DNA from: Polytrichum commune
Taxonomy: Eukaryota > Streptophyta > Polytrichopsida > Polytrichales > Polytrichaceae
DNA length: 64,000 nt
NCBI GenBank assembly: GCA_950295325.1
Contig: OX485805.1
Coordinates: 4,960,501-5,024,500 of the forward strand
Direction: 5' to 3'
This document shows positions 16,419 through 39,637 of this stretch, one piece after another; positions within the stretch are counted from its first letter, which is position 1, and the number at the start of each line of letters is the position of its first letter. The translations under genes and the position numbers were made by a program. The notes under the pieces were generated by a model that saw only the letters and a program-made list of their open reading frames with translations, was not told the origin of the DNA and did no database searches.

Positions 16419-17348
16419 CTACAAGGTTCCTACTTGATTAGTTGCTGTTGTGAATGTCATACATCTCAAGTTGTATCTTGTGTTTTGACTTTGTCTAGCA
16501 ATTGGCAAGACAGTTTGAGTCTCTCCATCAAACTTCAAGTATCCTCCACAATCTTCACATTGGTATTCCCACAATTTCCCATCCTCGAGGACTCTGTGAA
16601 TCGTCGTGCTTGATGACTTACACCAATTGCAGGGTTTGACGATATCGACAAATTCAATCGGCTCCTCACATTCTTCTTCATCGGAATCCTCATCTTGAGA
16701 GGCCAACTCGATCATAATGCGGCGTTTTCTATCCATCTCACACATCTCGTGCAACCAAGCCATTTCGTCCTCATCAATCTCCTCTTCGCTTTCATCACTC
16801 GAGTCATCGGACTCTCTTTTTCGAGAGGGCACTTTTATTTTCTTGTTGGCATTTCCCAACACCCAAGGTTGTCCGATTGTCTCGCTTCCGCACGATTCCC
16901 AAACGTCTAATACAGCGTCAACCTCGGATTTTCTCTTAAGTCTTAGCCGTCCGCCCTGCGTGAAACTCATTTTGCAAGCTCCACATTTATACCGCGGTTG
17001 TGTGACCTTGCCATTATTGTAGTATAAAAACTTATGAGCACCAACTTTTCCGCACTCTGGATGAGGACAAACTACAATAGCATTGTCATGGAGATCCTGA
17101 ACTTGAGACACCGGTCTGTTGTTTCGCGCAGCCTTCTTGTAGCCTTGAGGGTGTTTCCTCCTTCGGGAATTAGGATTGTGTGTGAAATGTTTCGTACACC
17201 CCAAACACTTGTATCGCGGTTGCTCAATACTCTTGTTGTTCAAGAACTTGAAGACCGCGTTCGTGGACTCGCAAAAGGGACATGTTTTAATCACATCAAC
17301 ATAAATCGGAGGCTCCATTGCTTGGCACGATCTCCCCATTTTTTTCAT
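16419..17348 (-). CDS. Tandem Dof-type zinc-finger protein 1 (Dof-like, intronless)
   Basis: A 309-aa single-exon frame. ATG at 17348 is preceded by an in-frame TGA, so the start is M1 or M4. Finger 1 is C23-x2-C26-x21-C48-x2-C51, exactly the Dof spacing, with STNAVFKFLNN and QPRYKC matching the Dof core. Finger 2 is C94-x4-C99-x22-C122-x2-C125 with FLYYNNGKVTQPRYKC and FTQGGRLR, again Dof-like. A basic segment (SRRRKHPQGYKK) follows finger 1. Residues about 176-210 are rich in Ser, Asp and Glu, followed by DEDEMAWLHEM. A third, degenerate finger is C240-x2-C243-x20-C264-x2-C267. Canonical Dof proteins carry one finger with a conserved RYWT; here the Trp is missing (KHFT, MSFT). A nuclear DNA-binding role is inferred from the fingers only. 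The protein is paralogous to 38612-39637. An alternative is a domesticated transposase-type zinc ribbon, which Dof domains resemble. Confidence 0.82.
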   Translation of the reverse strand: MKKMGRSCQAMEPPIYVDVIKTCPFCESTNAVFKFLNNKSIEQPRYKCLGCTKHFTHNPNSRRRKHPQGYKKAARNNRPVSQVQDLHDNAIVVCPHPECGKVGAHKFLYYNNGKVTQPRYKCGACKMSFTQGGRLRLKRKSEVDAVLDVWESCGSETIGQPWVLGNANKKIKVPSRKRESDDSSDESEEEIDEDEMAWLHEMCEMDRKRRIMIELASQDEDSDEEECEEPIEFVDIVKPCNWCKSSSTTIHRVLEDGKLWEYQCEDCGGYLKFDGETQTVLPIARQSQNTRYNLRCMTFTTATNQVGTL

Positions 17349-17575
17349 TCACATCCGTCAAATGGGTAGTATGTTTTTGCAATGTTTCACCAAGGCTGTC
17401 CAGTCACTACTTCTGGATGATTCTATAATTATATCCTTGAAGATGTATTCGATACTAAAAATTTCCTCAGCATGTCTTCCAACATGTATAAAGGGAGATG
17501 TGAAGTTCAGCGGTTATAAGAGAGTCGGTAAGAGAAAGGGAGAAAGAGCAAATCATCTTCTCTGCTTCCACCAAA

Positions 17576-17582
17576 TTATATA
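17576..17582 (-). promoter_or_regulatory. TATA-like box of Dof-like gene 1
   Basis: TATATAA on the - strand lies about 230 bp upstream of the ATG at 17348. It is followed downstream by a purine/pyrimidine-rich leader (GCTCTTTCTCCCTTTCTC). Assignment is by position and consensus only. Confidence 0.4.
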
Positions 17583-17984
17583 AAACGACATGTAGGTTGA
17601 CTTTAAATTTTACTTTTATTAGTTTTAATCTTTTAATTTAAACTGCTTCCAGAAAAGTAAAAGTAGAATAAAGTAGAATCAATATTGGACACCACTTCAG
17701 CACGCGCACACACACACATTGATGTCCACTAACTAGTACTACTAGTGTAGGTTACCATTGGGAGGTACAAACAACATGAAATAGCATACTTGGCAAAAAA
17801 ATTATAATCTCAGCAACATAGGACTACTTAGTGTAGATTTGTGCTATCCTGGTTACTCAAGGAGTAGAACGGACGAAATTTGGATACTCATGGTAAACTT
17901 TCAAAGTATCCACATAACACACATCTACCTTACGCAACTCCTAATTTTATTAATTAATAAAAAAAAACCACGGGTTGATTTTCC

Positions 17985-37820: not shown

Positions 37821-38219
37821 TCACATAATTAGGGAGTATTTGTCAACATAAGTAAAAAAATTTAAGTGATAAATTAAATTACATTGTGACATTTACCAAA
37901 GCATATTGGGATATTTGAGATCATAGTTTTGTGTTTTAATACGCAAGCGGAAAATAAGATTGAGCATACTAATGGCAAGTGTCATGTGTTTACATTATTG
38001 CATGCAAGAGAAAGACATTCTTGAACATACTAATGCCAAGTGTCATTTGTGTCTGAGATGGTGTATAACTCTTTTGAACATTTTTAAACTCCTAGTTCCA
38101 GTTCAACATCATCCTGACCAAACAAATCCACAACAACATGAGTGGAGTGGGATATTCAAATCAATGTACTGTAACAGTTTGGACACTTATTCATCAAAAA
38201 ATAATCACAGCCAAAATTT

Positions 38220-38475
38220 TGAAAACTTGCAAAATGTTGGATCCATGAGGATTCAGAAATCTTGGAGAATTAAAACCTTTGATGTACGAGCAACAAACTA
38301 CATGCAAATGACGGTCGTGTTGTCTATGTCTGCTTCACAGAGCATTGCTTGTTTTTTATTCACTTTTGAACTTGTGATGAAATTTTGGAATCTTCAATCG
38401 AGCCAAGTTATGAAATGCTTTCACCCAAACACACAAATATTTCGTCATCACTCCATTGCACTTGGACGGGTATTC
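38220..38475 (-). mobile_element. Partial copy of the long-TIR element
   Basis: It matches the right-hand part of the element in the EG16 intron (19930-20125): GAGCAACAAACTACATGCAA, TGATGAAATT, ATGAAATGCTTTCA and ATATTTCGTCA. It ends about 140 bp from the stop codon of Dof-like gene 2. The other terminus was not found, so this is a fragment. Confidence 0.55.
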
Positions 38476-38611
38476 AAAAGCACATCGACTTTGGAAGGTG
38501 ACTTCTCTCCGTTGGGGGAAATCGTTCAGATTTTCATTCATAATTTCATGTAATGTTCCAAGTTCCACACATGACGATGGTAATTTCAACTATTTACAAG
38601 AATCTAATAGC

Positions 38612-39637
38612 CTAAGTTTGTTCTGATTCAACCAAATTCCTTGTACATCTCAAGTTGTATTTGGTGTTCCGGCTTTGACGTTCGATCGGCAAGACTCTTT
38701 GCGTCGCACCATCGAACTTCAAGTGTGCACAGCAATCTTGGCATTGATATTCTAGCAGCCCAGAGTCTTTGAGCGTCTTGCAGAACTCTGTGTTTGGCGA
38801 CTTACACCAGTTGCATAGTTTCAGAGTTTCGACAAACTCAGACGGCTCCTCTTCGTCTTCGTCTGAATCCGAATCCGAGTCTTGGTTTCTCTCCACATTC
38901 ATGTGGCGCAGTATGTCCAGTCTGGCCATCTCGTTAAACCAAGCCATCTCATCTTCATCGACCTCCGAGTCTTCATCACTGGAGTCATCAAGCTCGTCTT
39001 CTTCTCTCCGTCGTCGAGATGATAATTTCACTTTCTTGTTGCAGTTCCCTAACACCTTGGGTCGTACAGTAGTTCCACATTGTTCTCCCAAATCCATGGT
39101 CCCGTCCCCAAATTTCCTCTTTAAACTTAAGAGCTGTTCAGCACAGAAACCGGCAACTCCTTGCATTTTGGTGTTGTCCTGATCAAAGTTCCTCTTGGAG
39201 CTTAAGCGTCCGCCGTGTGTGAAAGTCGTGTTGCAACTTCCACATTTGTAGCGCGGTTGTGTCAGCTTGCCATTGTTGAAGAATAAGAACTTGGAAGTCC
39301 CCACTTCCCCGCACCTCGGGTTCAGACATGATACGGTCGCGTTATTTGGGAGTTCCGGGACTGTTGCACCATCTATGTTGCTGCTACTACCACTTCTTTT
39401 TGCTGCAATCTTGGAGTAGCCTTGAGGGTGCTTCTTCCTGCGGGAATTGGGATTGTGGGTGAAAAATTTAGTACACCCCAAACACTTGTATCTCGGTTGC
39501 TCCATGTTTTTATTATTGAGGAACTTGAACTCTGCATCGGTGGAGCTGCAAAACGGGCACGTCTTGGTGACGCCCACATACATTGCAGGCTCCATGGCTG
39601 TTTTTGGCCTCCCCATTTTAGCCGCCTTCTTCTCCAT
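38612..39637 (-). CDS. Tandem Dof-type zinc-finger protein 2 (Dof-like, intronless)
   Basis: A 341-aa single-exon frame. The start is the ATG at 39637 (MEKKAAKMGRP), which aligns with the start of its paralogue; the frame is open further upstream but without an ATG. Finger 1 is C27-x2-C30-x21-C52-x2-C55 with STDAEFKFLNN and MEQPRYKC. Finger 2 is C104-x4-C109-x22-C132-x2-C135 with FLFFNNGKLTQPRYKC and FTHGGRL. A basic SRRKKHPQGY follows finger 1, an SSRRRREEDELDDSSDED segment precedes DEDEMAWFNEM, and a DSDSDSDEDEEE acidic run follows. Finger 3 is C275-x2-C278-x20-C299-x2-C302. The C-terminal LPIERQSRNTKYNLRC is shared with the paralogue (LPIARQSQNTRYNLRC). It is clearly homologous to 16419-17348 along its whole length. 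A role in DNA binding is inferred; the Trp of the canonical RYWT is absent in both fingers. Confidence 0.85.
   Translation of the reverse strand: MEKKAAKMGRPKTAMEPAMYVGVTKTCPFCSSTDAEFKFLNNKNMEQPRYKCLGCTKFFTHNPNSRRKKHPQGYSKIAAKRSGSSSNIDGATVPELPNNATVSCLNPRCGEVGTSKFLFFNNGKLTQPRYKCGSCNTTFTHGGRLSSKRNFDQDNTKMQGVAGFCAEQLLSLKRKFGDGTMDLGEQCGTTVRPKVLGNCNKKVKLSSRRRREEDELDDSSDEDSEVDEDEMAWFNEMARLDILRHMNVERNQDSDSDSDEDEEEPSEFVETLKLCNWCKSPNTEFCKTLKDSGLLEYQCQDCCAHLKFDGATQRVLPIERQSRNTKYNLRCTRNLVESEQT

Follow-up and report, generated by a model that had tools for sequence, protein, structure and literature searches.

Two intact minus-strand genes in the window, the whole 64-kb stretch of DNA analysed, encode paralogous proteins with tandem Dof-type fingers, and the new point about them is that the Dof scaffold is kept while the four mapped DNA-binding residues are replaced. 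We rate at about even the reading in which the pair represents old functional paralogues that act as nuclear transcription factors, retaining the Dof fold with altered DNA reading.

Gene pair and finger architecture

Gene 1 (positions 16419..17348, minus strand) is an intact ORF for P0001, a tandem Dof-like protein of 309 aa, and its paralogue gene 2 (38612..39637, minus strand) is an intact ORF for P0002, of 341 aa. The two proteins are 60% identical and score 75.9 and 75.2 bits as whole proteins on the Dof profile PF02701. Both frames are open over exactly the spans given in an earlier sequence-only reading, whose term 'intronless' holds for the coding sequence but not necessarily beyond it, where a 5' UTR intron could lie. 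The flanks of the two genes have nothing in common beyond short words, and tblastn within the window returned, beyond the two genes, only matches with E of at least 0.2. Pattern-seeded scans of viral contigs and bacterial or archaeal genomes confirmed no relatives of the pair, and phages and plasmids yielded none with P0001 as query; these collections contain no plant genomes, so their negatives say nothing about plants, and with no homologue outside the window in such non-plant collections, the conservation argument rests on the two paralogues.

Each protein carries twelve conserved Cys arranged as three C2-C2 motifs. The sequence-only reading had proposed the spacings C-x2-C-x21-C-x2-C, C-x4-C-x22-C-x2-C and C-x2-C-x20-C-x2-C with all twelve Cys retained in both copies, and P0001 and P0002 reproduce this exactly. 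Finger 1 comprises Cys 23/26/48/51 in gene 1 (17196..17282, CX2CX21CX2C) and Cys 27/30/52/55 in gene 2 (39473..39559), scoring 44.6 and 45.2 bits on PF02701; finger 2 comprises Cys 94/99/122/125 (16974..17069, CX4CX22CX2C) and Cys 104/109/132/135 (39233..39328), scoring 50.3 and 44.4 bits. Finger 3, a zinc ribbon formed by Cys 240/243/264/267 (16548..16631) and Cys 275/278/299/302 (38732..38815), reaches no Pfam family at cut-off, with 13.0 bits on PF02701 in gene 2; all six fingers lie on the minus strand. The CX2CX21CX2C pattern appeared 42 and 37 times per 20,000 shuffles of P0001 and P0002, respectively.

Scored singly against the curated PF02701 cut-off of 26.6 bits, all four isolated fingers 1 and 2 pass and neither finger 3 does (0/2), and the best non-Dof Pfam score on fingers 1 and 2 is at most 20.5 bits. 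These isolated-finger profiles, in which Dof scores lie far above those of InsA, Lar and other ribbons, uphold the earlier proposal of two tandem Dof-type fingers. The rival outcome that it had named, another ribbon family outscoring Dof, does not occur for fingers 1 and 2 but does for finger 3, where other families score above Dof, all below cut-off. A four-finger profile searched against the PDB matches the CDF1 Dof domain (8xuf) at E = 1e-10, with the next match at 1.9e-4. Compared by hhalign, fingers 1 and 2 prove related as profiles (probability 96.6, E 6.7e-10), and finger 3 has weak profile similarity to both. Full-length structure prediction was poor (mean pLDDT 43.5, with the gene 1 helix block better at 60-79), so fold assignment rests on sequence profiles.

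The fingers share with the Dof factors Arabidopsis CDF1 and CDF2 the zinc ribbon, its four Cys, and the NN and QPR core. CDF1 scores 94.2 bits on the Dof profile versus 44-50 for the fingers of the pair, about half, over almost the same stretch of the profile. A single finger is the defining feature of the Dof family, whereas the proteins here each combine two fingers that score as Dof with a third C2-C2 ribbon. The canonical Dof spacing, CX2C-X21-CX2C (PMC7076670, PMC10842470), is present in finger 1 of both proteins; finger 2 departs from it at the first knuckle, C-x4-C, giving CX4C-X22-CX2C, and finger 3 is CX2C-X20-CX2C.

Conserved segments and constraint

Beyond the Cys, the motifs listed by the earlier reading (the QPRYKC core, the HNPNSRR-KHPQGY block, DEDEMAW and LPI.RQS.NT.YNLRC) are common to both paralogues. 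The usual Dof tail is VPVGGGxRK; the pair lacks it, and finger 1 is followed instead by a basic tail, HNPNSRRRKHPQGYKK in gene 1 (17133..17180, minus strand) and HNPNSRRKKHPQGYSK in gene 2 (39410..39457, minus strand). A basic cluster, one K[KR]x[KR] per protein, is the likely nuclear localisation signal: NKKIKVPSRKR in gene 1 (16815..16847, minus strand, residue 169) and NKKVKLSSRRRR in gene 2 (39005..39040, minus strand, residue 201). The acidic segment of gene 1 (16695..16820, minus strand), containing DEDEMAW and a predicted helix (residues 193-218, pLDDT 60-79), has a 30-mer net charge of -13 and is a possible activation region; its gene 2 counterpart (38915..39004, minus strand), also with DEDEMAW, has a 30-mer net charge of -15. 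Comparison of the paralogues further reveals a conserved C-terminal tail, LPIARQSQNTRYNLRC in gene 1 (16461..16508, minus strand) and LPIERQSRNTKYNLRC in gene 2 (38645..38692, minus strand).

The duplication is old and the proteins are constrained. The paralogues differ by a dN of 0.285 and a dS of about 1.9, giving a dN/dS of about 0.15, a rough value because dS is saturated (infinite in three of seven blocks). Codon positions 1, 2 and 3 are identical at 75%, 75% and 51%, and the lowest dN of the seven blocks, 0.125, belongs to finger 1 with its tail. When gene 2 was evolved in a Jukes-Cantor simulation at half the observed dS, the open frame was kept in 0 of 2,000 runs, with a mean of 15.5 stops. 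The retention of the Cys, read from the sequence as selection, agrees with this purifying pattern.

DNA-reading residues and upstream AAAAG elements

Canonical Dof factors bind [T/A]AAAG. In Arabidopsis CDF2, residues K166, R170, Y171 and W172 are needed for DNA binding (PMC9477738), and these K, R, Y and W residues are replaced throughout the pair, with 0 of 16 positions identical over the four Dof-type fingers. The Trp loss noted in the sequence-only reading corresponds to Phe in 4/4 fingers, and Lys stands for Arg in two of them. That all four mutation-mapped CDF2 DNA-binding positions have changed is a stronger observation than a lost Trp and a changed tail, and the loss of the four on an intact scaffold yields a clear prediction, that AAAG binding is changed or lost. 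The published substitutions are to alanine; Trp to Phe and Arg to Lys are not known to be among them. With all the mapped recognition residues gone, DNA binding itself may have been lost.

On the reading that we prefer, each protein would consist of two Dof-fold zinc ribbons and a third one, every ribbon binding one zinc ion, and the stretch separating fingers 2 and 3 carries the basic cluster and the acidic segment, which is helical in part. The protein would be nuclear, and fingers 1 and 2 would act on DNA as one covalently linked unit, contacting it through the substituted recognition residues and through finger 1's conserved basic tail. We propose that, because of these altered residues and this tail, the site read differs from plain AAAG. 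By analogy, the acidic DEDEMAW helix may recruit the transcription machinery.

The upstream regions contain candidate sites, which we treat as a hypothesis. CTACTTTTACTTTT, whose opposite strand carries two AAAAG cores, occurs upstream of both genes, at a distance from the ATG of 305 nt in gene 1 (17653..17666, minus strand) and 775 nt in gene 2 (40412..40425, minus strand). CTGCTTTTACTTTT is 579 nt away from the ATG of gene 2 (40216..40229, minus strand), 22 nt before a TATA-like sequence, TATATATAA (40185..40193, minus strand), a possible gene 2 core promoter judged from its sequence. The motif CTTTTACTTTT (complement AAAAGTAAAAG), chosen post hoc, has four copies in 64 kb versus a mean of 0.15 and a largest count of 1 in 100 shuffles; three of the four are at most 1 kb upstream of gene 1 or gene 2, on the coding strand, and CT[AG]CTTTTACTTTT has three copies, all upstream of the pair. 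The upstream 14-mer has an extra one-mismatch copy at 5020, outside both upstream regions. Among random pairs of 1-kb segments, 68 of 3,775 share a pair-confined 14-mer, four of those with at least three copies; in a separate draw, which comprised no more than 3,000 pairs (near pairs were skipped, making the denominator somewhat lower), 50 pairs shared at least 14 bases.

These elements bear on a tentative extension of the preferred reading, which we hold to be somewhat doubtful: a distinct plant family of Dof-fold regulators with three fingers, standing apart from canonical Dof factors, that would have traded the AAAG-reading residues for a new set and would read a longer site in two parts through its joined fingers, its own genes still being under tandem AAAAG control. 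They also bear on an unlikely alternative, in which the proteins are covalent double Dofs still reading AAAG, binding two AAAAG cores with a gain in affinity by avidity and regulating their own genes through the upstream tandem sites. The enrichment of CTTTTACTTTT and its placement upstream of the pair fit this alternative, as do a reported rise in Dof affinity of about 100-fold with two sites (PMC9897228), the better binding of AAAAG than of AAAG (PMC9477738) and the solved CDF1 Dof structure, titled as a palindromic-bound complex; however, every Dof-type finger has lost all four mapped DNA-binding residues, the motif was found post hoc, with its near copy at 5020 and with random pairs also sharing 14-mers, and the same sites could serve other Dof factors.

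Similarly improbable is a loss of DNA binding in a protein that keeps the Dof fold, its ribbons serving instead in contacts with proteins (other Dof factors, chromatin or RNA polymerase, for instance) or with RNA. The replacement of the mapped recognition residues in all four Dof-type fingers is consistent with it, and so is the tail of finger 1. The second half of this finger aligns with U1-type fingers (PF06220, U1-C), and the spacing of its T-H and R..H..G presumably matches the U1-C consensus, whereas its first half is Dof. U1-C is among the PDB matches (E 0.33), and isolated finger 1 comes near the PF06220 cut-off of 22 bits in one paralogue, with 20.5 bits in gene 2 versus a weakly zf-U1-like 16.0 in gene 1; whole P0002 scores 16.5, and all of these scores remain below cut-off. 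The strongest constraint, moreover, falls on finger 1 and its very basic tail, which resembles a nucleic-acid contact and argues against this alternative.

Other ribbon families and described Dof genes

The bacterial Lar-type and IS1-type ribbons (PF14354, NF050000) have four Cys in common with the fingers and give weak, sub-threshold single-finger scores, whereas the Dof profile gives fingers 1 and 2 much higher scores. Lar was rejected (PF14354, cut-off 28.6 bits), with fragments at most 19.4 bits and whole P0002 at 13.5; whole P0001 reaches 32.9 bits only by summing two stretches, each of which fails singly. On the IS1/IS1595 zinc domain (NF050000, cut-off 28 bits), none of the six fragments scores above 18.3 bits. 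A domesticated transposon-derived protein, with ribbons from an IS1-type zinc domain instead of Dof, is highly improbable: P0001 finger 1 scores 18.3 bits on the IS1/IS1595 domain and 20.2 on a phage transposase family, where a shorter CDF1 Dof fragment scores 12.2 and 12.6, but the other three Dof-type fingers give 13.6, 15.6 and 10.3 on IS1/IS1595, one of them below CDF1, Dof stays ahead by 24.4 bits for finger 1 of P0001 and, against the NCBIfam transposase models, by a wider margin for the other three, all transposase scores are below cut-off where one exists (whole P0002 reaches 15.8 bits on the PHROGs transposase family, those profiles having been run on 4/6 finger fragments), and neither protein has a transposase domain at Pfam cut-off.

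Plant genes carrying at least two DOF domains have been counted before, 16 of them in five species (Ceratodon 3, Physcomitrella 4, Aquilegia 5, Actinidia 3 and Rhododendron 1), seven of the 16 in the two mosses (PMC10842470, 2024). The claim of the sequence-only reading that no described plant family has this architecture is therefore too broad as worded, although the section of that paper on these genes does not mention a three-finger layout. Both proteins resemble these genes in having more than one Dof domain per plant gene, the plant origin of the pair being judged from the genes around it, and may differ from them in the third ribbon and the changed recognition residues, neither of which the section mentions. 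Their lengths fall within the 200-400 aa usual for Dof proteins (PMC10842470). Among the matches consulted in an open-licence collection of 5.39 million papers, multi-Dof genes were described in PMC10842470 only; further matches are PMC5383729, PMC5410603 ('tandem Dof') and PMC11618092 ('two DOF motifs').

The authors of PMC10842470 could not exclude artefacts among their multi-DOF genes; against this doubt about gene models, the pair supports, for one genome, the view that such genes can be real. Because their site is so short, Dof factors may need partner proteins for precise DNA targeting (review, PMC9897228), and the pair, preserved and with its fingers already in tandem, is a natural setting in which to test the contribution of a second Dof finger.

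Finger identity in the gene pair

Gene 1 (16419-17348, - strand) and gene 2 (38612-39637, - strand), encoding P0001 (309 residues) and P0002 (341 residues), are uninterrupted over exactly the coordinates proposed in the sequence-only reading, and the three cysteine motif spacings described there recur in both proteins, with all twelve zinc ligands retained. The proteins are 60% identical in alignment. Because the CX2CX21CX2C motif arises in only 42/20,000 and 37/20,000 shuffles of P0001 and P0002, respectively, the finger layout is not a product of chance; the pair are real, conserved, divergent tandem-Dof proteins.

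Pfam profile scanning of the whole proteins scored PF02701 (Dof) at 75.9 bits (P0001) and 75.2 bits (P0002), with P0001 also above the PF14354 (Lar) cut-off (32.9 vs 28.6 bits), only when summed over two stretches. Rescoring six separate fingers cut from both proteins placed the four Dof-type fingers (fingers 1 and 2) above the PF02701 cut-off of 26.6 bits, at 44.6, 50.3, 45.2, and 44.4 bits, as their earlier assignment anticipated, with the best non-Dof family reaching at most 20.5 bits. A CDF1 fragment, covering nearly the same profile positions, scores about twice as high (94.2 bits). Searched against solved structures, the four-finger profile matched the CDF1 Dof (8xuf, E = 1e-10), followed by a C2H2 finger (E = 1.9e-4). 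Profile comparison finds fingers 1 and 2 alike. Finger 1 is identical at 45/54 aligned positions between P0001 and P0002, far above the 18/49 shared by fingers 1 and 2 of the same protein, indicating that finger duplication predates gene duplication.

The canonical Dof tail is VPVGGGxRK; the claimed replacement, a basic block (HNPNSRR(R/K)KHPQGY), follows finger 1 in both proteins. From about its third Cys (39410-39500 and 17133-17220, - strand), finger 1 resembles the U1-type (U1-C) finger: the second half of the isolated finger scored 20.5 bits in P0002, just below the Pfam cut-off of 22, and 16.0 bits in P0001, and U1-C was present in the PDB search at E 0.33. Finger 1 is possibly a Dof/U1-type hybrid, a lead rather than an assignment. 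Finger 3, the C-terminal C2-C2 motif, reached no Pfam cut-off in either copy when scanned in isolation, its scores being 19.4 and 14.3 bits (Lar), 16.1 and 15.8 bits (eIF-5/eIF-2B), and 13.0 bits (Dof, P0002 only). Judged from these profiles, it is a zinc ribbon with no family assignment; compared with the Dof-type finger profiles (probability 52.7), it is perhaps a decayed third Dof.

DNA-recognition residues and protein function

In Arabidopsis CDF2, alanine substitution of Y171 and W172 abolishes DNA binding and that of K166 and R170 strongly reduces it, with K167 and Q169 dispensable (PMC9477738); R151, Y152, and W153 of OBP3 give a similar picture (PMC11696086). At the four required positions P0001 has L-K-H-F and G-M-S-F, whereas the P0002 fingers show L-K-F-F and G-T-T-F; 0/16 residues are identical to CDF2 across the four Dof-type fingers. 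The R170 position carries Lys instead of Arg in 2/4 fingers, and the Trp loss noted in the sequence-only reading holds in 4/4, each with Phe. All four fingers retain the four Cys, F, NN, QPR, and T. By profile, fingers 1 and 2 are therefore members of the Dof fold family, but they lack one functional trait by which canonical Dof factors are marked, the recognition residues.

The segment separating fingers 2 and 3 holds a KKxK basic cluster, read by analogy as a putative nuclear localisation signal, and an acidic stretch (net charge -13 and -15 per 30 residues) that contains the previously noted DEDEMAW in both proteins and is read, likewise by analogy, as a putative activation region. The full-length structure model of P0001 is poor, its best part being a helix (residues 193-218) in the acidic region. 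A simple pattern search found no LxLxL or DLNxxP repression pattern in either protein. Over the alternatives we favour, at about an even chance, a nuclear regulator whose way of reading DNA has changed. A double-site AAAG binder and a Dof-fold protein without DNA binding are both less likely, and equally so.

A single finger per Dof protein is stated in both PMC9477738 and PMC11696086. Section 5 of PMC10842470 lists 16 genes that carry two or more DOF domains, three of them from Ceratodon purpureus and four from Physcomitrella patens, terming them a novelty, previously unreported and uncharacterised, and possibly artefacts. Tandem Dof genes are therefore not without precedent, and the suggestion that no such family had been described was too strong. 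The three-ribbon layout and recognition-residue loss are absent from that section's account of multi-DOF genes.

Selection and upstream elements

A plain Nei-Gojobori count for the two sequences (302 codons), the proposed check on the paralogues, gave dN 0.285 and dS 1.9, a ratio of ~0.15 that is rough because dS is near saturation and infinite in 3/7 blocks. Among the seven, dN is smallest (0.125) in the block of finger 1 and its tail. The genes agree at 75% of first, 75% of second and 51% of third codon positions. When divergence of gene 2 was simulated under Jukes-Cantor at half that dS, the frame gained a mean of 15.5 stops and stayed open in 0/2,000 runs. The dN/dS pattern and simulated frame loss together mark the genes as old paralogues under constraint. 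Their flanks have only short words in common.

Comparing the 1 kb upstream of each gene gives CTACTTTTACTTTT as the longest common word; its complement carries two AAAAG cores six bases apart. A window search located three copies of the 14-base CT[AG]CTTTTACTTTT, with two Dof cores (17653-17666, 40216-40229, and 40412-40425, - strand), all on the coding strand upstream of gene 1 or gene 2, where they precede the ATGs by 305, 579, and 775 nt; a TATA-like sequence stands 22 nt after one copy. CTTTTACTTTT occurs four times in the window (0.15 expected), three times upstream of the pair and once at 5802. Among two-CTTT-core spacings of 0-12, only spacing 2 is prominent (3 vs 0.28 expected); two 1-kb segments placed at random did as well in 21/20,000 trials. 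Several points count against the element: it was noticed post hoc, after looking; 68/3,775 random segment pairs share a pair-confined 14-mer, four with at least three copies; and ACTTTTACTTTT with one mismatch has six sites in the window (0.86 expected), four within 1 kb upstream of the pair and two elsewhere (5020 and 5802), the shared 14-mer itself having a stray one-mismatch copy at 5020. We hypothesise that Dof-type factors, their own or canonical, regulate the gene pair through upstream sites.

Other features of the window

ARAGORN found no tRNA and Rfam no family at gathering score in window 1-64000. Upstream of gene 1, a Glycosyl hydrolase family 16 exon (17985-18455, - strand, 138.2 bits) presumably encodes, from its sequence, a xyloglucan endotransglucosylase, in keeping with land-plant DNA. 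Successive parts of an alpha/beta hydrolase profile match 11975-12553 and 13716-14006 (+ strand) at 21.4 and 25.1 bits (cut-off 25.8), probably as exons of one gene. A short glyceraldehyde-3-phosphate dehydrogenase-like fragment (33766-34023, + strand, 29.8 bits, Pfam cut-off 31.7) may be either an exon or a gene relic. Large open frames at 59998-63259 (+ strand) have no Pfam match at cut-off and may resemble plant IRE-type kinases in their N-terminal region. Dispersed repeats, ~77-87% identical, at 4255-4659 and 44456-44872 and at 24116-24440, 28360-28686, and 30569-30880, are probably transposon relics.
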